Source of the DNA: an uncultured Chlorobiaceae bacterium
GTDB taxonomy: Bacteria; Bacteroidota; Chlorobiia; Chlorobiales; Chlorobiaceae
NCBI GenBank assembly: GCA_903882665.1
Contig: CAIRXW010000035.1
Span: forward strand, 1-64,000
DNA: 64,000 bases
Direction of reading: 5' to 3'
The translations under genes were made by a program, and so were the position numbers. Shown in pieces: positions 20,157 through 31,288 of this stretch. The first letter of the stretch is position 1, and each line of letters starts with the position of its first letter. The notes beneath the pieces were generated by a model. The model saw nothing but the letters and a program-made list of their open reading frames with translations. It searched no databases and was not told the DNA's origin.

Positions 20157-21776
20157 TTAATGTGCCGCAGAGAGATCCGCTGGCTCCTTCTTCTGTATTC
20201 TGATCAGCAGCAGCAGAGGCAGGCATATTGTAAAGAGGAATGCTATCAGCATGAAGGCGTCCATGTAGGCAAGGTGGTAGCTCTGGGCGGTGAGGGTTCC
20301 TTCAAGCGCTTTGAGTGCTGCAATTTCAGCTCCGGCTGGTGATAGCCCGCCTCTCAGCGTGGCGGCTTGTTGCAGTACGTTGATCCTTTCTGCGGCTGCC
20401 GGGTCATAGGGGGAAAGATGGCTGAGCAGTTCCACCCGGTGTGTCGCCATGCGGTTGGTAATGTAGGTATTGGTGAGTGCAATACCGAATGAGCCGCCGA
20501 GCTGGCGCACCATGTTATTGAGCCCTGTCGCCTGGCCAATATCGCGGCCATGCAGCCCTGATACGGCGAGCATGGTGACGGGAATGAAGATGAAGCCGAG
20601 CGCCACACCGCGTACAAGCAGTACCCAGAAGAAGTTGGATGAGCCGGACTGCATGGTTTGCTGGCTGAGTTCAAAGCAGAAAAAAATAAAGGCAACCATG
20701 CCAAAGGCCATCAGCTTTTTTGGTGAAACACCCCGTTGCATAGCTATGCCGAGCGGGAGTGAAATGATACCGGTTACCATGGCGCTTGGAAAAAGTACCG
20801 TTCCGGTCAGTACGGCGGTAAAGCCGAGCAGTCGCTGTACAAAGACAGGAAAGACAAAGAGGGAGCCATAGAGACCGTAACCGACAATAAAGGTGAGGAC
20901 TGCTGCAATGGCGAGATTCTTGCTCCGGGCCAGGACGCGGAGATCGACTGCGGGCTCTTTGGTGTGCAGCTCCCACAAAACAAATCCAAGGAGGGCAGCC
21001 ACGGCAATGAAGGTGAAGAAGGTGATATAGGGCGTATCAAACCAGTCTTTCGATTGTCCCCGTTCAAGAATGAACTGAAGCGAGCCGATGCCGACGGCGA
21101 GAAGCCCGATACCCGTCCAGTCGATTTTTGAGACGGCATGGCGTACCTTTGGCTCCTTGAGAAAGGTGTAGGATGACCATGCGGCAAGAAGTCCGACCGG
21201 GATGTTGACAAAAAAGCACCACTCCCACGAGAAGTAATCTACCAGATAACCTCCAAGCAGCGGGCCAATGGTGGGGCCGAGCACAAGCCCCATTGAAAAG
21301 ATTCCGGTTGCCTTGCCGCGCTCTTCAGGACGGTAGGTTTCGTAGAGGATGGCCTGGGATGTTGGCAGAAGCGCACCGCCGCCGAGTCCCTGAATGAAGC
21401 GGAAGAAGACCAGCGCCCAGATATCGGTAGCCATGCCGCAAAAAAGCGATGCAAGCGTAAAGAGCAGGATGGAGCCGATGTAGTAGTTCCGCCGCCCGAG
21501 CAGGTTGCCGAGAAAACCTGAGAGAGGAATGACGATGACGTTGGCGATGGCATAGCTGGTGACCACCCATGAGACATCCTCAATGCTTGCCCCGAGGTTT
21601 CCGCTGATTTGCGTTATGGCGACGTTGACAATGGTGGTGTCGATAAGCTCAAGCATGGCCGAGACGATAACCGTCAGGGTGATGATGAGTTTGCGAAGTC
21701 CGGTGTCGTAGGTCTGAGCCGGATTCGGCAGCATTGCGGCTACCGAAGTGCCATTCTGTTGTTGTGGTCGAGCCAT
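20157..21776 (-). CDS. emrB: EmrB/QacA-type (DHA2) multidrug efflux transporter
   Basis: A 539-residue major facilitator of the 14-helix DHA2 family. LIDTTIVNVAITQISGNLG near residues 44-62 is the EmrB motif D1, and GFLGNLLGRRNYY is motif A. GLVLGPTIGPLLGGYLVDYFSWEWCFFVNIPVG is the antiporter motif C region. It uses the proton gradient to export hydrophobic drugs or metabolites. It is the last gene of the operon tolC-usp-emrA-emrB and begins 8 bases after emrA, forming the inner-membrane part of a tripartite pump. The operon appears to be driven by the sigma-54 promoter at 24573-24588. Confidence 0.92.
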   Translation of the reverse strand: MARPQQQNGTSVAAMLPNPAQTYDTGLRKLIITLTVIVSAMLELIDTTIVNVAITQISGNLGASIEDVSWVVTSYAIANVIVIPLSGFLGNLLGRRNYYIGSILLFTLASLFCGMATDIWALVFFRFIQGLGGGALLPTSQAILYETYRPEERGKATGIFSMGLVLGPTIGPLLGGYLVDYFSWEWCFFVNIPVGLLAAWSSYTFLKEPKVRHAVSKIDWTGIGLLAVGIGSLQFILERGQSKDWFDTPYITFFTFIAVAALLGFVLWELHTKEPAVDLRVLARSKNLAIAAVLTFIVGYGLYGSLFVFPVFVQRLLGFTAVLTGTVLFPSAMVTGIISLPLGIAMQRGVSPKKLMAFGMVAFIFFCFELSQQTMQSGSSNFFWVLLVRGVALGFIFIPVTMLAVSGLHGRDIGQATGLNNMVRQLGGSFGIALTNTYITNRMATHRVELLSHLSPYDPAAAERINVLQQAATLRGGLSPAGAEIAALKALEGTLTAQSYHLAYMDAFMLIAFLFTICLPLLLLIRIQKKEPADLSAAH

Positions 21777-21784
21777 GTATAAAT

Positions 21785-22783
21785 TTATTTTACCTTTACC
21801 TCTACCACAACGTTCATGCCAGCGGATAGCGGGTGGTTTTTATCGGGCTTTTCGGTAAAGATGATTTTTACCGGAATACGCTGGGTGACCTTCACAAAGT
21901 TGCCGCTGGCGTTGTCGGGGGGCAGCAGGGCGAATTGTGCTCCGGTACCCGATGAGAGCGACTCTACCTTTCCCTTGAACTCTTTGCCGGGGTATGCGTC
22001 CACCTTGATAACGACCGGCAGTCCGGGAGCTATTTTGTCGAGCTGGGTCTCCTTGAAATTAGCGTTCACCGTGAACTCATTGCTCCCGACAAGCGCGATG
22101 AGCTGCTGCCCTGGAGAGACGTACTGGCCAGGCTCAACATTCTTTTTCGAGATATGGCCTGATGCCGGAGCGGTGATGGTGGTGTAGGAGAGCTGAAGCT
22201 CGGCATTGCGCAGTTCAGCTTCCTTCAGTCGTACCTGTGCAGCCGCGCTGCTCTGTTGGCCTGCCGCTGCTGCATGTTGTGCAGACGATGCTTCAGCACC
22301 GGCATGGACAGCATCAAACTCTGCCTGTGAAATGACGTCCTGGTGGCGGAGATTTTCGTTTCGGCGCAGGTCGGCCTGCTGTTTGCGGCTTGTTGCTGAG
22401 GCTGCACGTGCGTTTGCTTCGGCGGCAAGCACGGATGCGCGGGCATTCTGCAGGGCGGCTTCAGCGATGTCACGCTTGATCTTGTAATCGGGAATTTCGA
22501 GCGTGATAAGGGTGTCTCCCTTGTTTACTCTTTGATTGGTGCTTACCACTACCGTACTGACTGTTCCCGGAATCCGGGAAATGACCGGGTAGATGTCTCC
22601 AACAATCTGAGCGTTGTCGGTCTCGACATAGAAGAAGGAGTGGTAAAGCTTGCTTCCGCCCCAGATCAGGGCGACAGCAGCGAGAACGCCAATAATGACC
22701 ATGCGCAGGGGCTTTGCAGCTTTTGGGCTCTCTTTTCCGGACGGGTTGTTTTCAGCCATTGTGTTTGATTCAGGTTGTTCCAT
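21785..22783 (-). CDS. emrA: EmrA/HlyD-type membrane fusion protein
   Basis: A 332-residue periplasmic adaptor. A short cytoplasmic N-terminus precedes one membrane helix (MVIIGVLAAVALIWGG). Next come the lipoyl-like half-motif ETDNAQIVGDIYPVISRIPG, an alanine- and glutamine-rich coiled coil (about 90-200), the second lipoyl half (TITAPASGHISKKNVEPGQ) and a beta-barrel. It bridges EmrB and TolC. The start at 22783 overlaps the usp gene by 14 bases. An internal ATG at 22759 is an alternative. Composition and motifs are normal. Confidence 0.9.
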   Translation of the reverse strand: MEQPESNTMAENNPSGKESPKAAKPLRMVIIGVLAAVALIWGGSKLYHSFFYVETDNAQIVGDIYPVISRIPGTVSTVVVSTNQRVNKGDTLITLEIPDYKIKRDIAEAALQNARASVLAAEANARAASATSRKQQADLRRNENLRHQDVISQAEFDAVHAGAEASSAQHAAAAGQQSSAAAQVRLKEAELRNAELQLSYTTITAPASGHISKKNVEPGQYVSPGQQLIALVGSNEFTVNANFKETQLDKIAPGLPVVIKVDAYPGKEFKGKVESLSSGTGAQFALLPPDNASGNFVKVTQRIPVKIIFTEKPDKNHPLSAGMNVVVEVKVK

Positions 22784-23198
22784 GGTCTTTGTTATTGTCA
22801 GGTGTTTTCAGTATCACGACGGGGCATGTGGCGTGGCGCAAAACCGCTTCGGCCGTGCTTCCTACCAGAAGCCTTCCTATTGCTGTGGTTCCGTGGGAAC
22901 CGAGCATGATCATATCGGCATGGTGCTCTTTTGCATAAAGGAGAATGGTGGCTGCGGGTTCGCCGTGCTCAACCGTGAAGAGGGCACGGGCCCTGTTTTC
23001 GGAGAGCATGTCGCTGTAGCGCGAAAATTCATGCAGGTGCCTGCTGAACAGGCCGTTCTCATGCTCTTCTTCCTGAACGACATAGAGCACAACGATTTCC
23101 GTATTGGCGCAGTGCATTGCAGCCGCATAGCGCACAACGGCATCTGAGGAGGCGGAAAAATCCACGGCGCAGATAATTTTTGTCAGAGGTTTCTCCAT
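22770..23198 (-). CDS. Universal stress protein (UspA family)
   Basis: A 142-residue UspA-fold protein. It starts ICAVDFSASSDAVVRYA and ends with the ATP-binding signature MLGSHGTTAIGRLLVGSTAE-x-x-x-R-H (G-2x-G-9x-G-S/T). That signature marks the nucleotide-binding MJ0577-like subgroup. It sits between tolC (1 base upstream) and emrA (14-base overlap), an uncommon place for a Usp. A role in sensing stress that accompanies efflux induction is a reasonable inference. Nothing is broken. Confidence 0.9.
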   Translation of the reverse strand: MEKPLTKIICAVDFSASSDAVVRYAAAMHCANTEIVVLYVVQEEEHENGLFSRHLHEFSRYSDMLSENRARALFTVEHGEPAATILLYAKEHHADMIMLGSHGTTAIGRLLVGSTAEAVLRHATCPVVILKTPDNNKDHGTT

Positions 23199-23199
23199 T

Positions 23200-24531
23200 T
23201 TACCAGAAAACCTCCCCGCTTGCCCGTTTCAGCGTATAGTTATTCATGACATAAGCATAAGCGGCCTGCAGCCGGGCAAGTTCAGCCTGTGAAAGGGAGG
23301 CTTCAGTATCGAGCAGGTCGAGCGCAGTGGCCATGCCGTTTTCGTAGCGGGCCCTGACGTGACGGGCTGCAAGTTCAGCCTGTTGCACCTGCACTTCGGT
23401 CGTGGTTATTTTTTCTGAAGCTGTCTGGAGGGCATGGAGGCTCTCCTCAACATCAGTTTTCACCTGCTGCTCGGTATCGATTCTCCGCTGTGTGGCCGCC
23501 CGCATCATGGCATTGCTCTCCTGCCGCTCTGCGCTGGTACGGAATCCGGTAAAGAGCGGAATTTCGAGGTGCAGGCCTGCGGCAACATTATTGCGCATTT
23601 CATTGATATCTGGTTGATAGCCGTTTGTGACGCCGTATGAGATGCTCCCGGTAACGATTGGCACACCTTGTTTCATGGCAAGGGAGCGATGCAGTTTTGC
23701 CGCTCTCTCATTCTCCCGGGAGAGTTGCAGCTCAAGGCGCTGCTCCAGTGCCTGAGCGACAAGGCCGGAGTTATCGGAGGCTGTCGGGGTCAGGGCAAAT
23801 GATCCCTGGAGCGCAAGGGTTGTGTTTTCCGCTATGCCGGTCAGTCGCCGCAGGGTTAACTCGCTGCGACGAAGTTCATGTTCAATATCGAGTGTTCTGT
23901 TTCGGGCAGCCGCGATACGCACTTCGGTGGAGAGGACATCGAAGCGGGTGGCCGATCCTGCCTGGTAACGTTTGGTTGTATAGTCGAGAGCCTTGTTGAG
24001 TGAGGCAATCTCTTTCTCCTCTACACGGAGATTTTCACGCAGAAAGAGAATGCCGTAAAAGAGCTGCACGGTTTGAAAGGAGAGCTCCCGGCGGGCCAGT
24101 TCCAGCGATTCTTCGGCTGTTTTTTTGCCACTCTTCGCCAGATTGACATTGGTGCCTCTTTTTCCGAAATCAAGCAGGGTTGCCCGTGCCGTTACTTTGG
24201 CGTCGTAGTTGTCGTTTGGCATGAATTGAATTTCTCCGCTGTTGCCGAAACTCATTTTTGAGACCGTATCGAGCCAGGTGTATCCCGCGCTGGCGCTTAT
24301 CTGCGGGAAATATGCGCTTCGGCTCTGGGTGATGCGGGCATCGGCTGCGGTAATCTCTTCAGCCACGGCTTTCAGTGCCGGATTGTTTTCGCGGACAAGA
24401 TGAATGGCTCGATCAAGGGTGAGTGGTTTTTTTGCCGGTTCATCAGCAGCGGTGGCAGGCGAAGGCCATGCCAGCATCAGTGCTGTTGCCGCAATACCGG
24501 CGGTTCTGGTCAGTATACTCTTCTTTGTCAT
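23200..24531 (-). CDS. TolC-family outer membrane efflux protein
   Basis: About 443 residues from ATG 24531. The frame extends 54 codons further upstream, but the inner ATG gives a clean signal peptide (TKKSILTRTAGIAATALMLA, cleaved near PATAA) and lies just downstream of the sigma-54 promoter. Two OEP repeats follow, each with long helical hairpins: LTLDRAIHLVRENNPALKAV in the first and RARYENGMATALDLLDTEASLSQAEL in the second. It forms the outer-membrane exit duct for the EmrAB pump. It is the first gene of the operon and is divergent from the sigma-54 activator gene. Confidence 0.9.
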   Translation of the reverse strand: MTKKSILTRTAGIAATALMLAWPSPATAADEPAKKPLTLDRAIHLVRENNPALKAVAEEITAADARITQSRSAYFPQISASAGYTWLDTVSKMSFGNSGEIQFMPNDNYDAKVTARATLLDFGKRGTNVNLAKSGKKTAEESLELARRELSFQTVQLFYGILFLRENLRVEEKEIASLNKALDYTTKRYQAGSATRFDVLSTEVRIAAARNRTLDIEHELRRSELTLRRLTGIAENTTLALQGSFALTPTASDNSGLVAQALEQRLELQLSRENERAAKLHRSLAMKQGVPIVTGSISYGVTNGYQPDINEMRNNVAAGLHLEIPLFTGFRTSAERQESNAMMRAATQRRIDTEQQVKTDVEESLHALQTASEKITTTEVQVQQAELAARHVRARYENGMATALDLLDTEASLSQAELARLQAAYAYVMNNYTLKRASGEVFW

Positions 24532-24572
24532 GGAGCTATGGTTTGTTCCGTTATATTCGTTGCTCTTAAATA

Positions 24573-24588
24573 TGCAATTAACATGCCG
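24573..24588 (-). promoter_or_regulatory. Sigma-54 (-24/-12) promoter of the efflux operon
   Basis: On the minus strand the sequence reads CGGCATGTTAATTGCA. Against the RpoN consensus TGGCACG-N4-TTGCW it keeps the essential GG and GC dinucleotides at exact spacing and all of TTGCA, with two changes (C for T, T for C). A transcription start about 12 bases on would leave a roughly 30-base leader before the tolC ATG. A sigma-54 activator gene lies divergently at 24726. Confidence 0.72.
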
Positions 24589-24725
24589 GAGCACGGAAAT
24601 ATGGCGATCATCATGTTTTTCAGGGGCATTTTGTTCGCTGTCGGGCGTTTGTTTTCTGAAAAAATAAGAATTTTCTGTATTATGTGTTCTCAAGTTTCAG
24701 GAATCTCATTTCTTTTTGTTGTGCC

Positions 24726-26825
24726 ATGAGCAACTCTTCCGTCCATCAAGCCCATAAACTGATGCAGTACATCAGCGATGCCGTCGGTTCAATCCGTGAC
24801 CCCCAGGAGCTTTTCCGCACGGTTATCGACAAGCTTCGTCTTGTTTTTGAGTTTGATTCCGCCGTCATCATTACCTTCGACAAGGAGGGGCGGTACAGTA
24901 ATGTCTTTTTTGAAATGCTGCGCTTTCAGCTTCCTGAAACGTTTGATCGCAGAAAAAGGCTGATTGCAGGCTCGTGGATTGAACCCCACCTTGGCGATCA
25001 GGCGGTTTCGGTTATCACGATCGAAGAGGCTCTTGAGCGTTACACTACGGACGTTCCGCTCCCACAGATCCTCTTTGACCTCGGTATGCGGCAGGTGGTG
25101 CTTTCGCCATTGCGTACCGGAGGAAAGATTATCGGCTTTCTCTGCTTCGTTTCAAAGGATGAAAAGAGGTGGTCGGAGAGCGAAAAAGAGCTTCTGGCAA
25201 CGCTTTCATCGCCTGTTGCCGTTGGTGTCAGCAATGCCCTTGCCTACGAGGAGTTGCGGCAGCGTGAAGCGCAAACCGCCATGCAGCTTGCCGTCAACAA
25301 TGCCCTGCTCACTATCAAGGATCGAAGCCGAATGCTGCTGGCGGTCTGCGAGCAGATCGACAAGCTGGTGCCCTGTACTTTCCTTGGTATTCGCGTCATG
25401 GGAGAGGATGGAAGCTATCGGATTTTTGACAGTTTCATGCGTGAGAGTAGTGGTGGCTTTGTTGCGGTTTCTCCAAGTGATATGCTTGATGTTGACGATA
25501 TTGAGGAGATCGCACGGGAGAGTTTTTCCCTGATTTTCAATCCGGGTTGCTTTTGCGGCGAAGCGTTTCTCCAGCTTAGTGAGGAGTACCGGATTCTCGC
25601 TCTGGTCAAAGAACGATTCGGTATCTGCTCCCTGCTTACGGTTCCGCTCTGGGATACACCGGGCAGTCGTGCCGGACTGATTATCTCCGACACCTCCCGC
25701 TCGTTCGAAGAGCATGACCAGGCGACCGTCAACCTGATTGTGCCCCAGCTCTCTTTGGCCTTGCAGAACTATCTCGCCTTTGAGGAGATTGATGAGCTGC
25801 GCCGCAAGCTGGAGGGCGAGCGCACCTGCCTCATTGAGGAGATCAAAGCTGCGCATAATTTTGAGGAGATCATCGGCAAAAGCGCCTCCCTTTCTGCGGT
25901 ATTGCGCCGGGTGAGCCAGGTTGCTCCTACCGATGCCACAGTGCTGATTCAGGGTGAAACTGGCACCGGCAAGGAGCTTTTTGCCCGAGCCCTGCACAAT
26001 CTTTCAACCCGCAGCAAGCGTGCGTTGATCAAGGTTAACTGTGCGACTTTGCCTGGGCCGCTTATCGAATCGGAGCTGTTCGGTCATGAAAAAGGGAGTT
26101 TTACCGGCGCCACAGAACGCCGGATCGGCAAGTTTGAGCTGGCCGAGGGGGGGACGATTTTTCTGGATGAAATTGGTGAACTTCCTCTGGAGCTGCAGGC
26201 AAAGCTGCTTCGCGTGCTTCAGGAGCGTGAGCTTGAGCGGCTTGGCGGACGGCAGGTGATCAAGGTTGATGTGCGTGTTATTGCGGCCACCAACCGTGAT
26301 CTCGCGCGTGAGGTTGCCGAAGGGCGCTTCCGTGAAGATCTCTTTTTCCGGCTCAACGTCTTTCCCCTTGTTATTCCTCCACTCTCTGAACGCCGGGAGG
26401 ATATTGCCATGCTTGCCGCCCATTTTGCTGCCAAATTTTCAAGAGAGTTCGCCAAGCCGCTTCGCACCTTCAGGGAGAGCGATATGCAGCGTCTGGTCGC
26501 TCGGGAATGGAAGGGTAATATCCGCGAGCTTGCCCACCTGATCGAGCAGGCGGTTATTGTTTCTGAAGGGGCGTCGCTGGATTTTTCAGCACTCCTCTCA
26601 TCGTTGCCCTCCGTTCAGGATGCGCAGCACTCCCTGCGACAGAAAACCATGCGCGATTTTGAATCGGATATTGCCATGATGGAGCGGGAGCTGATTCTGG
26701 ATGCTCTCGACCACTCAAATGGCAGGGTGAGCGGTGAGGGTGGAGCTGCAGAAAAGCTGGCCATGCATCCGAAAACGCTCTACTCCCGTATTGACAAGCT
26801 CGCTATCCGTAAACGATTTTCGTAG
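24726..26825 (+). CDS. Sigma-54-dependent transcriptional activator with GAF domains (FhlA-like)
   Basis: About 699 residues from ATG 24726. Residues 1-175 and about 185-350 look like two GAF sensor domains (the first ends [20 protein letters not shown]). A linker coiled coil leads to the AAA+ domain: Walker A GETGTGKE near 410-417, the sigma-54 contact loop GSFTGA near 457-462 (GAFTGA with Ala to Ser), Walker [13 protein letters not shown] and arginine-finger [20 protein letters not shown] Fis-type helix-turn-helix ends the protein. With no receiver domain, it senses a small molecule through GAF. Its divergent position and the -24/-12 element opposite indicate that it controls the efflux operon. 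Confidence 0.9.
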
Positions 26826-26859: not shown

Positions 26860-27300
26860 TCACGGCAGCACACGGAGCTGGATGTGAAAACGCCCAATTA
26901 TCGAGGAGTCGCCCTCCCATGAGCGCCACTGTTTCAGCATGATGTCGCCTGTACCAGCTTTTTTGCACTGGAAGATGAACGTCACTTCACCGCCGGAGCC
27001 GACACCAGTTGTGGCCGGATAGTGCGCCTCGGAGGGAAGCTCGCTTAAGAATTCCCGGTCATAGCTCTCTACCGTCCAGCGGTACCCTGTTGTCGCGTTT
27101 TCCGGCAGTGTTATTCTGACCGTTTCATCCAGGCGGATATCCAGCGTGCGATTATTATCCGTTTCAACGAGTTGGTGCGCCATTTTTACGTGTTTTGCAT
27201 TTTTTTGACAGGAAGCTGCACCGAGGGAACCGATGATGAAACATGTTCCCACCAGCACAGCCGTGCGCGTAAGGGAGAGGATTGTATATTTTTGTCTCAC
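26860..27300 (-). CDS. Chagasin-type (I42) cysteine protease inhibitor
   Basis: A 146-residue exported protein. Its hydrophobic N-terminus ends GSLGAASC, so it could be a lipoprotein with Cys31, although the lipobox is imperfect. The mature part has the three chagasin loops: NATTGYRW (68-75), GVGSGGEV (99-106) and RSW (126-128), corresponding to NPTTGY, GxGG and RPW. These loops wedge into the active site of papain-family proteases. It is encoded 32 bases downstream of a papain-like protease gene on the same strand, so it very likely inhibits that enzyme. The inhibitor carries an export signal while the protease lacks one. Confidence 0.85.
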   Translation of the reverse strand: MRQKYTILSLTRTAVLVGTCFIIGSLGAASCQKNAKHVKMAHQLVETDNNRTLDIRLDETVRITLPENATTGYRWTVESYDREFLSELPSEAHYPATTGVGSGGEVTFIFQCKKAGTGDIMLKQWRSWEGDSSIIGRFHIQLRVLP

Positions 27301-27332
27301 CGTGGCATTCTCCTGTCTTATGAATCGGTGGT

Positions 27333-28148
27333 TCAGATGGTTATACCGTAGTTGTCGTTGTGGAAGCCGGCAGCGATGTAAGCCTCGCTGGCGTAAGCAA
27401 AACCTCCGTCACCCCAACCTGTACCCCAACTGTTGCGTACAATGAAGTGCCCGTCGGTAGTGTAGCCAACAATGGCGATACAGTGACCTCCGCGAACCGT
27501 GGCAGGCTGGAAGACATCAAGCTTGCCATGTGTTGCTGAGGCGTGATCCCAGGTTGCATCAACATTAACACCGGCGACGATTGGGCCGTGGGTTGCAAGC
27601 CAGGTGCGCCAATTGGCAAGATTCTTTGCAAGATTGAAATAGGCGGCGATACGTCGCGTTGCGGCTGTTGCGTAGAAGGTGCTTTCCGGATTAGTGTACA
27701 TTGTGGTAGCAATATGGAATGGCAGCAAGGCATCGGTCACAGCTCCGTATTTTTTCAGGATATCAAGAGCCGCGTTGGCAAAGGTGCCAGAAGACTCAAT
27801 GAAGGTGGTTGGATGAGACGTGTATATGTCGGTCTCTTTTGCTCCCATCCAGGAGAGACGAACCGACAAAGGGTCATTTTGTCCTAGTCGTCCGGCTTTT
27901 ACAAAATGGTAACGGGCAACGCCGTCGGTGGTTCCCCAGCCGACGCACGAACCGGTATTTTCCTGGTTGCCAATCTTCCACCAGGGGGCACGCAAGTCTA
28001 CGCTTGCAGGGAGGGTAGCAGGTGGAGCAGCAATGGCATTGGCTTCGAGAGCCTGCTGGATGCTCCAGTCCTTCGTTGTATCGTGCCGAGCGGGTAACAG
28101 ATTACAAATACGATCTGCTTCGGGCCTTGTACCATGTTTTACAGTCAT
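27333..28148 (-). CDS. Papain-like C1 cysteine protease
   Basis: A 271-residue protein. A short 45-residue N-terminal segment is followed by the mature fold beginning LPASVDLRAPWWKIGNQENTGSC. The catalytic set is complete: oxyanion Gln62, nucleophile Cys68, His222 in RGGHCIAIVGY and Asn239 in VRNSWGTGWGDGGF. There is no signal peptide and only a minimal propeptide. Control may rest on the chagasin-like inhibitor encoded directly downstream. C1 papain enzymes are sparse in bacteria. The natural substrate is unknown. The N-terminus could use a later start, but ATG 28148 has an AGGAGAACA leader that could serve as ribosome binding site. Confidence 0.88.
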   Translation of the reverse strand: MTVKHGTRPEADRICNLLPARHDTTKDWSIQQALEANAIAAPPATLPASVDLRAPWWKIGNQENTGSCVGWGTTDGVARYHFVKAGRLGQNDPLSVRLSWMGAKETDIYTSHPTTFIESSGTFANAALDILKKYGAVTDALLPFHIATTMYTNPESTFYATAATRRIAAYFNLAKNLANWRTWLATHGPIVAGVNVDATWDHASATHGKLDVFQPATVRGGHCIAIVGYTTDGHFIVRNSWGTGWGDGGFAYASEAYIAAGFHNDNYGITI

Positions 28149-28714
28149 AACTTGTTCTCCTGTGTTTGGTGAGAGAGCCGGGGATATCCCCTGGTTCCCG
28201 TCATTCAGTTGTGAAAAAAATTATTTTTGCAATCGACAAATTGGCGTGCTAATCATCACCTCCTTTCAGCTTGGGATAATGTTTGAAATTTCGGTCAATC
28301 TGTAAAAAAGCGCGTACTCAAACTGCACACGATGAGGCTTGACTGATGCTCTTTACCTTATTCAGCTCAATATGCTGGATGTCTCGTCGTGTTTGTTCCG
28401 TAATTCTTGCTGGTGGCGTATTGCCCGCAGTTTTTTTCTGAACCGGGAAAATATTCTGGAGAGTAGAATGTTATGTTACGTGAGCCGCTTGTGTTGCAGC
28501 AATATAACGCATTTCTCTTGCTTTTTGAAGTGTTATTGTGAGTTTTCGCCGCATAAACCAAAGCAGTATACTGCTGTTTTTTAAATTTCACAATTGTTAA
28601 TTTTCTCCGCCCGAACAATTCTGCGCCAACCCGGTAGCGATATAGTCCCGAATGCAGATCAATCCGTGCATTTTCAGCGGGAAAACGGTGAATATATGGC
28701 TGTATAACGTTGGT
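28149..28714. other. Intergenic region, 566 bp
   Basis: No credible gene. Weak open frames on both strands lack codon bias and family resemblance. A 12-base palindrome GGGGATATCCCC (28180-28191) lies 31 bases upstream of the protease start and could be a regulator site. The stretch 28440-28620 is AT-rich. No terminator for the leftward aminotransferase was found with confidence. Confidence 0.4.
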
Positions 28715-30704: not shown

Positions 30705-30938
30705 ATGCAACAGGCAAAATTCAGTCTCTCGCCGCCTCTGGTCGAGTTTTTAAACGATTATAAACGCTTTGGATTCAAAGATAAAAGTTCAATGGTACAG
30801 GTTGCCTTGCAGCGTCTGGAAGAACAGTTTACACTGCAACAGCTTCAACAATCGGCGAAACTGTATGCCGAACTGTATGAAGAAGAGGCTGAATTACAGG
30901 AGTTAACTGAAACAGCTATAACCGGATGGCCTGAATGA
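30705..30938 (+). CDS. Antitoxin of a MazEF/PemIK-type module
   Basis: A 77-residue acidic protein. The N-terminal strand AKFSLSPPLVEFLNDYKRF followed by SSMVQVALQRLEEQ fits a ribbon-helix-helix DNA-binding fold. The C-terminus (LYEEEAELQELTETAI) is acidic, as in toxin-neutralising tails. It overlaps the MazF-like toxin gene by 4 bases (ATGA). It likely represses the promoter at 30629. The exact antitoxin family is not recognised. Confidence 0.75.
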   Translation: MQQAKFSLSPPLVEFLNDYKRFGFKDKSSMVQVALQRLEEQFTLQQLQQSAKLYAELYEEEAELQELTETAITGWPE

Positions 30939-31288
30939 TAACCTTGAAGCGCGGTCTCATCATTGATGTCAATCTTGATCCAGCCCAAGGTTCCGAAACA
31001 GGCAAGATTCGGCCTTGTGTCATTGTGACGAATAACGTTTACAATGAACGGGTGCAGGTGATACAGGTCGTACCCATCACCGCATGGAGTGAAAAGAAAT
31101 GCCGAATAAAAACTAATGTGGAGATTCTGCCGAGTACTATAAATGGTCTGACCAAGCAATCCATAGCAGATTGTCTCCAGACCCGCCCGACAGATCATCG
31201 CTTCAGATTGGTTAATGTTCGGGGCGAATTGACCACTGACGAGATGAGAAAAATTGATAATGCGCTGAAAACTGTTTTTGCGTTGTAA
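30935..31288 (+). CDS. MazF/PemK-family mRNA interferase toxin
   Basis: A 117-residue PemK/MazF-fold endoribonuclease. LKRGLIIDVNLDPAQGSETG and KIRPCVIVTN form the conserved N-terminal barrel with the catalytic Arg, and VVPITAW plus the later GLTKQSIADCLQTR carry the second conserved block. Family members cut mRNA at short sequence motifs and stop growth. It overlaps its antitoxin by 4 bases. It is intact and of normal length. Confidence 0.88.
   Translation: MITLKRGLIIDVNLDPAQGSETGKIRPCVIVTNNVYNERVQVIQVVPITAWSEKKCRIKTNVEILPSTINGLTKQSIADCLQTRPTDHRFRLVNVRGELTTDEMRKIDNALKTVFAL

Follow-up and report, generated by a model that had tools for sequence, protein, structure and literature searches.

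The DNA analysed here, a 64,000-nucleotide stretch that we call the window, comes from an uncultured Chlorobiaceae bacterium (GCA_903882665.1, contig CAIRXW010000035.1, positions 1–64,000, forward strand). Its minus strand carries, in an operon-like arrangement, a gene for a papain-family (C1) cysteine protease followed directly by a gene for a chagasin-type (I42) cysteine-protease inhibitor. The two genes, their elements and a convergent neighbour are located as follows.

27333–28148, minus strand: C1 (papain-family) cysteine protease, 271 aa, ATG start at 28148, predicted to be without a signal peptide.
28156–28161, minus strand: Shine-Dalgarno-like AGGAGA ahead of the protease start (sequence AACACAGGAGAACAAGTT followed by ATG).
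27301–27332, minus strand: gap of 32 bp from protease stop to inhibitor start, whose sequence includes an AGGAG for the inhibitor.
26860–27300, minus strand: I42 (chagasin) cysteine-protease inhibitor, 146 aa, GTG start at 27300, predicted lipoprotein-type signal.
27208–27300, minus strand: predicted signal peptide and lipobox (GAAS, then C31) of the inhibitor, from an AF2 helix at residues 5–22 and the lipobox pattern; conserved at related loci.
27181–27183, minus strand: internal Met40 codon of the inhibitor, candidate second start, from a phmmer alignment and its invariance.
27085–27099, minus strand: inhibitor loop L2, NATTG, residues 68–72, invariant columns.
26989–27000, minus strand: inhibitor loop L4, GSGG, residues 101–104, invariant columns.
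26917–26925, minus strand: inhibitor loop L6, RSW, residues 126–128 (RPW in chagasin), with R126 and W128 invariant.
24684–26825, plus strand: convergent sigma-54 activator with GAF domains (Pfam), a neighbour in 13 related loci.

An earlier note on this DNA had assigned the first gene to the papain family from a Gln62-Cys68-His222-Asn239 set, and our analysis confirms this. The protein matches Pfam PF00112 (Peptidase_C1) with an E-value of 4.5e-16 and 60 bits, against a curated cut-off of 20.7, over positions 1–203 of 220. All 16 Chlorobiaceae homologues pass the same cut-off, and the four catalytic residues, located by script, are invariant among them. The N-terminal segment of the protease bears an RICNLLPAR..KDW motif. 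The ATG start is served by a well-spaced AGGAG ribosome-binding site, and the upstream extension of the frame is hydrophilic (NQGISPALSPNTGEQV) and soon reaches a stop, leaving no missed signal peptide. The median pairwise dN/dS of the protease is 0.17 (Nei-Gojobori), a rough value because dS is partly high. An AF2 model, built from an alignment of only 16 rows, had a mean pLDDT of 50 and was too poor to be used.

The second gene had been described as carrying all three chagasin loops, and this holds as well. Its product matches Pfam PF09394 (Inhibitor_I42) with an E-value of 1.4e-20 and 73.8 bits (curated cut-off 27.2, passed by 17/17 inhibitor homologues), and its residues 39–143 align with Trypanosoma cruzi chagasin (phmmer, E 7e-11). 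The loops are invariant across the homologues, save the middle residue of RSW. Compared with the published chagasin motifs NPTTG, GxGG and RPW (PMC5014320), the window protein has Ala for Pro in the first loop and Ser for Pro in the third. The first change is mild: P30A chagasin still inhibits cruzipain with a Ki of 20 pM (PMC2607524). The AF2 model of the inhibitor is confident for residues 41–146, and its best Foldseek matches in the PDB are EhICP2 and chagasin (3m88, 2nnr; TM about 0.8, normalised to target), so that the modelled fold is the Ig-like fold of chagasin.

The N-terminus of the inhibitor contains two Arg/Lys residues within the first nine positions, a hydrophobic helix and GAASC at residues 27–31. 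From these features we predict that the inhibitor is held in the envelope by a lipid anchor and is not freely secreted. In E. coli, lipoproteins are sorted according to the residue at position +2, a rule that may not hold in Chlorobiota. This residue is Gln in the inhibitor and, under the E. coli rule, suggests an outer-membrane location.

We surveyed 86 Chlorobiaceae genomes, many of which are draft MAGs. I42 genes were found in 27 of them and C1 genes in 45, and a comparison of positions placed the I42 gene beside a C1 gene in 20 of the 27 I42-bearing genomes. The pairs are of two kinds. In type 1, as in the window, the protease has about 270 residues and an N-terminal RICNLxPSR...DW motif; the pair is intact and directly adjacent in 16 Chlorobiaceae genomes. 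In type 2, a leaderless C1 protease of 670–680 residues with C-terminal tryptophan-rich repeats is followed by a leaderless I42 protein (five cases, L065–L069, in the four genomes G035, G031, G057 and G069). No type-1 protease without an inhibitor occurs in the 86 genomes.

The wider search, in which bacterial and archaeal genomes were scanned with the inhibitor alignment and the flanks inspected, yielded seven type-1 pairs outside the family: two in Methylococcaceae and one each in Synechococcus, Phormidium, Edaphobacter modestus, a Rubrivivax MAG and a proteobacterial MAG. Intact type-1 pairs are thus present in at least 23 genomes (16 Chlorobiaceae and 7 others) from several phyla. C1-I42 pairs that are not type 1 occur in Arthrobacter/Micrococcaceae and in Planctomycetota; further pairs lie in L119, a more distant genome within the phylum of the window, and on a plasmid of Priestia megaterium, with both genes already annotated in its public record. 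The earlier note had proposed a search for adjacent C1 and I42 genes in other genomes, and the outcome contradicts its own view of C1-chagasin operons as unusual, given the 20 of 27 I42-bearing Chlorobiaceae genomes and the several other phyla that have the pair. The phages and viral contigs searched contained no relatives of the pair, and viral carriage was set aside. In the open literature, to which our search was confined, we found no paper describing C1-I42 operons. The pair is a real module, probably an undescribed one, and not an isolated case.

Several individual cases deserve mention. The Methylococcaceae MAGs L084 and L085 have type-1 pairs whose inhibitors are 51–55% identical to that of the window and close to the Chlorobiaceae ones; gene exchange between lake bacteria is a possible source, with weak tree support. 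Outside the family, strict pairing has an exception on the Microvirga plasmid NZ_CP069358.1 (357886–359472, L124), which encodes a 528-aa protein with a C-terminal type-1-like C1 domain (44% identity); the next gene belongs to the peptidoglycan recognition family, and no I42 is annotated alongside. In G025 (L064, 4638–5846) a 403-aa frame opens with a signal-like segment and ends in an I42 domain, an architecture that is unusual among bacterial chagasins. Besides the catalytic Cys, the only Cys conserved in the type-1 proteases is Cys15 of the N-terminal RICN motif (window 28104–28106), present in 22 of 23; it could act as a switch, either by redox change or through the pro-segment.

The closest solved C1 relative of the window protease by sequence is xylellain (3OIS), and the two have in common a short N-terminal segment before LPxxVDL. 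Xylellain-like genes of Chlorobiaceae (about 305–310 aa, e.g. on G000:C36) are, unlike the window protease, unpaired with I42. One of them is the only other C1 gene of the window genome (G000:C36:59863-60513; L003, 1408–2325, minus strand), leaderless and with no I42 neighbour. A xylellain-like gene is present in 12 of the 13 genomes with a type-1 inhibitor in the genus of the window and in a minority of the others.

A conserved property of the type-1 pairs is their predicted distribution across the membrane. According to leader calls from sequence patterns and hydropathy, all 23 type-1 proteases are without a signal, while 22 of the 23 inhibitors begin with an N-terminal signal or membrane segment, the Rubrivivax protein being the only leaderless-looking one. 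The layout that the earlier note had pointed out in a single pair, an inhibitor with an export signal next to a protease without one, is therefore kept almost throughout, and the overlooked protease signal peptide that it had allowed for is found neither in the window nor in the 22 homologues. Of all 21 Chlorobiaceae type-1 inhibitors, 16 have a lipobox under a strict pattern and 20 under a looser one; the protein failing the looser pattern, L060, is located beside a protease remnant. Both partners are leaderless in the type-2, Arthrobacter, Planctomycetota, L119 and Priestia pairs, and the other exception is L094, where the I42 gene encodes a lipoprotein and lies some 830 bp away from a C1 gene. 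Because, in the other pairs, an inhibitor beside a leaderless protease is mostly leaderless too, export of the inhibitor is not simply the default of the family, and on these predictions it appears mainly to mark the type-1 branch.

A short cytosolic form of the inhibitor, an option absent from the earlier note, would remove the paradox of the two compartments. If translation also started at Met40, the gene would yield two products, the lipoprotein for export and a cytosolic chagasin of 107 residues, and the latter could restrain the protease in its own compartment as well. In the phmmer alignment Met40 falls exactly on the initiator Met of the T. cruzi protein chagasin. All 21 of 21 Chlorobiaceae inhibitors have this Met, although the linker ahead of it and the residues behind it vary. 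Leaderless relatives begin near this position, most paired homologues outside Chlorobiaceae have a Met there, within a residue or so, and its surroundings have little structure relative to most of the gene (mean rank 0.16). Against this, the internal ATG shows no enrichment of Shine-Dalgarno-like sequence (mean rank 0.66 when compared with codons of the same gene, strong in two loci only), so that an internal start driven by such a sequence was ruled unsupported; the Met is missing in L097, and it could be a structural or an ancestral remnant. We regard the second start as a minority hypothesis and as distinctly improbable.

In the genus of the window, the pair occupies one locus, beside the convergent sigma-54 activator and usually also an aminotransferase. 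The activator marks this conserved locus, and we do not claim it as a member of the system; no convincing sigma-54 promoter site was found upstream of the protease, and a link between pair and activator through such a promoter was discarded. Thirteen genomes of the genus have the inhibitor at this home locus: eight with an intact pair and five in which the protease is broken or missing. In L054 the half bearing the catalytic Cys is gone, L060 retains a 38-residue remnant, and L058, L059 and L062 show no trace of the protease. The converse, a protease without an inhibitor, was found at the home locus in none of the genomes of the genus. The median pairwise dN/dS of the inhibitor is 0.18 (Nei-Gojobori), and it is also 0.18 for pairs involving protease-less loci, rough values as dS is partly high. 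The inhibitor is thus, on this rough measure, under purifying selection also where the protease has been lost, and consequently stays useful without its neighbour. That it outlives the protease supports the view that it does more than act on its neighbour within one cell; such retention is expected of an immunity-type or shield protein and unexpected if the sole job of the inhibitor were to restrain its neighbour.

The same five loci, with an inhibitor under purifying selection and no working protease, agree with the proposal that the main targets of the lipoprotein chagasin are foreign cysteine proteases, whether these come from protists that graze, from other bacteria or from neighbours that have lysed, which would make it comparable to lysozyme-inhibitor lipoproteins or to Cip1 of Pseudomonas syringae. 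The linked protease would then have an unrelated cytosolic job or be one of several targets. Chagasin itself binds two unrelated C1 enzymes with a Ki near 7 pM (PMC2607524), and Cip1, a secreted bacterial chagasin, inhibits foreign plant C1 proteases (PMC5014320). If the neighbour did not matter, however, it would be hard to see why I42 lies beside a C1 gene in 20 of the 27 Chlorobiaceae genomes that have I42, and in many phyla; in addition, every Chlorobiaceae type-1 protease comes with an inhibitor. We consider this proposal possible, if somewhat unlikely.

The two genes may also recombine separately. In the protease tree, L053, L055 and L057 of the genus of the window group with a sister genus, and their inhibitors stay with the genus of the window. 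Constraining the proteases of the genus to monophyly was rejected (AU p 0.022) and the reverse constraint on the inhibitors was not clearly rejected (p 0.087), for groups picked post hoc after inspection of the trees, so that partly separate histories within the genus are only suggested. Separate recombination would be easier to reconcile with a broad-spectrum inhibitor of active sites than with allele-specific immunity.

Taking these data together, we tentatively favour, with a probability of roughly 0.42, a two-gene protease-inhibitor unit in which the chagasin lipoprotein guards the envelope against active protease, either the cell's own or released by kin, in a layout resembling that of effector and immunity proteins. 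For this unit we infer a zymogen state, a release step, a lipid anchor and inhibition of the neighbour. The protease would be made in the cytoplasm and probably held inactive by its short N-terminal segment, as suggested by the motif that it shares with xylellain-like enzymes. It would act only once outside the cytoplasm, through cell lysis or another route. The chagasin lipoprotein, anchored in the envelope and probably in the outer membrane, would plug the active-site cleft of protease molecules reaching the periplasm or the surface, whether leaked, own or from kin. By analogy, a leaderless enzyme and an exported inhibitor could thereby work like an effector and its immunity protein. The partly separate gene histories count against this explanation, being unlike those of allele-specific toxin-immunity pairs. 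A more far-reaching version, which we think unlikely, is that the pair constitutes a widespread, undescribed conflict module: the leaderless protease, freed by lysis or a new route, would attack the envelope proteins of neighbours, and the chagasin lipoprotein would be the immunity factor, outlasting the protease.

The routes by which the protease could leave the cell were examined at the level of gene content. TssC/VipB is present in 0/86 Chlorobiaceae genomes, and T6SS delivery of the protease is thereby excluded for the family. A PrtD-type T1SS exporter scores above the cut-off in the genome of the window (two tandem copies on contig C8) and below it in the carriers G006, G011, G017, G019 and G051; contractile-sheath proteins are lacking in several carriers. 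Since both occur in some carriers and not in others, neither was retained as a general route. With no tested export system common to all carriers, lysis, vesicles or another route remain. Of the two options offered in the earlier note, a non-classical export route and an inhibitor aimed at foreign proteases, either may still apply. That none of the tested secretion machines tracks the pair counts against an effector-like reading.

The nearest published layouts are those of the Bacteroides C10 pairs (PMC3462683) and of Tse1/Tsi1 (PMC3391265). In the Bacteroides pairs Btp/Bti and Bfp/Bfi, a papain-fold protease gene adjoins and is co-transcribed with the gene for a small staphostatin-like inhibitor, and the inhibitors are exported, some as lipoproteins (PMC3462683). 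They differ from the window pair in that the protease belongs to family C10 rather than C1 and the inhibitor is not an I42 protein. Moreover, the proteases in Bacteroides are also predicted to be exported as lipoproteins, which puts both partners in one compartment, unlike those of the window (PMC3462683). Tse1/Tsi1 provides a precedent for the split layout: a papain-like enzyme without Sec export, delivered by a T6SS, is matched by a periplasm-directed immunity protein (PMC3391265). Tse1, however, is a peptidoglycan amidase and not a C1 protease, and its delivery machine is the one lacking in Chlorobiaceae.

Other systems share single features with the pair. Chagasin-cruzipain of T. cruzi and other protozoan ICPs combine the same I42 and C1 families, with all three binding loops conserved; unlike the window inhibitor, protozoan chagasins have no signal peptide, are not operonic and carry RPW and NPTTG in place of RSW and NATTG. 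Cip1 is likewise a bacterial chagasin with a signal peptide, but its target is a foreign plant protease, and the available part of its description does not mention a linked C1 protease. In staphopain-staphostatin and SpeB-Spi, protease and inhibitor genes are also adjacent and the inhibitor guards one compartment, but a secreted protease with a cytosolic inhibitor is the inverse of the window topology, and the inhibitor folds are unrelated.

The mirror image of the staphostatins is a further reading of the pair, in which the protease is an ordinary intracellular enzyme controlled solely by its N-terminal segment, and the inhibitor shields the periplasm from traces of misdirected enzyme, with no intercellular role. 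Spi and the staphostatins do guard the compartment in which their protease must not act (PMC3462683), and the unpaired second C1 gene of the window genome, also leaderless and with no inhibitor, indicates that the cytoplasm tolerates C1 enzymes that have no leader. A leaderless protein should, however, seldom get to the periplasm, and the persistence of the inhibitor after protease loss would go unexplained; we hold this reading to be quite unlikely.

In most discussions, bacterial chagasins figure as virulence factors or as orphan inhibitors, and those of protozoa as proteins that regulate a resident protease. The position of I42 genes directly behind C1 genes in many bacteria suggests that a resident-target arrangement exists in bacteria too. 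One branch has put the inhibitor in the envelope, by prediction, and its protease has stayed leaderless, which raises the question of where enzyme and inhibitor would meet. If the meeting place were between cells, chagasins would form a new class of immunity protein.

Two further groups of genes lie near the pair in the window. On the minus strand, positions 20157–24693 hold consecutive genes for a TolC-family outer membrane protein and for UspA-like, EmrA-like and EmrB-like proteins, a row that adjoins the pair across the genus and looks like a drug efflux operon rather than a protease exporter. On the plus strand, at 30705–31288, a small gene pair resembles by eye a toxin-antitoxin module of the MazEF/PemK type.
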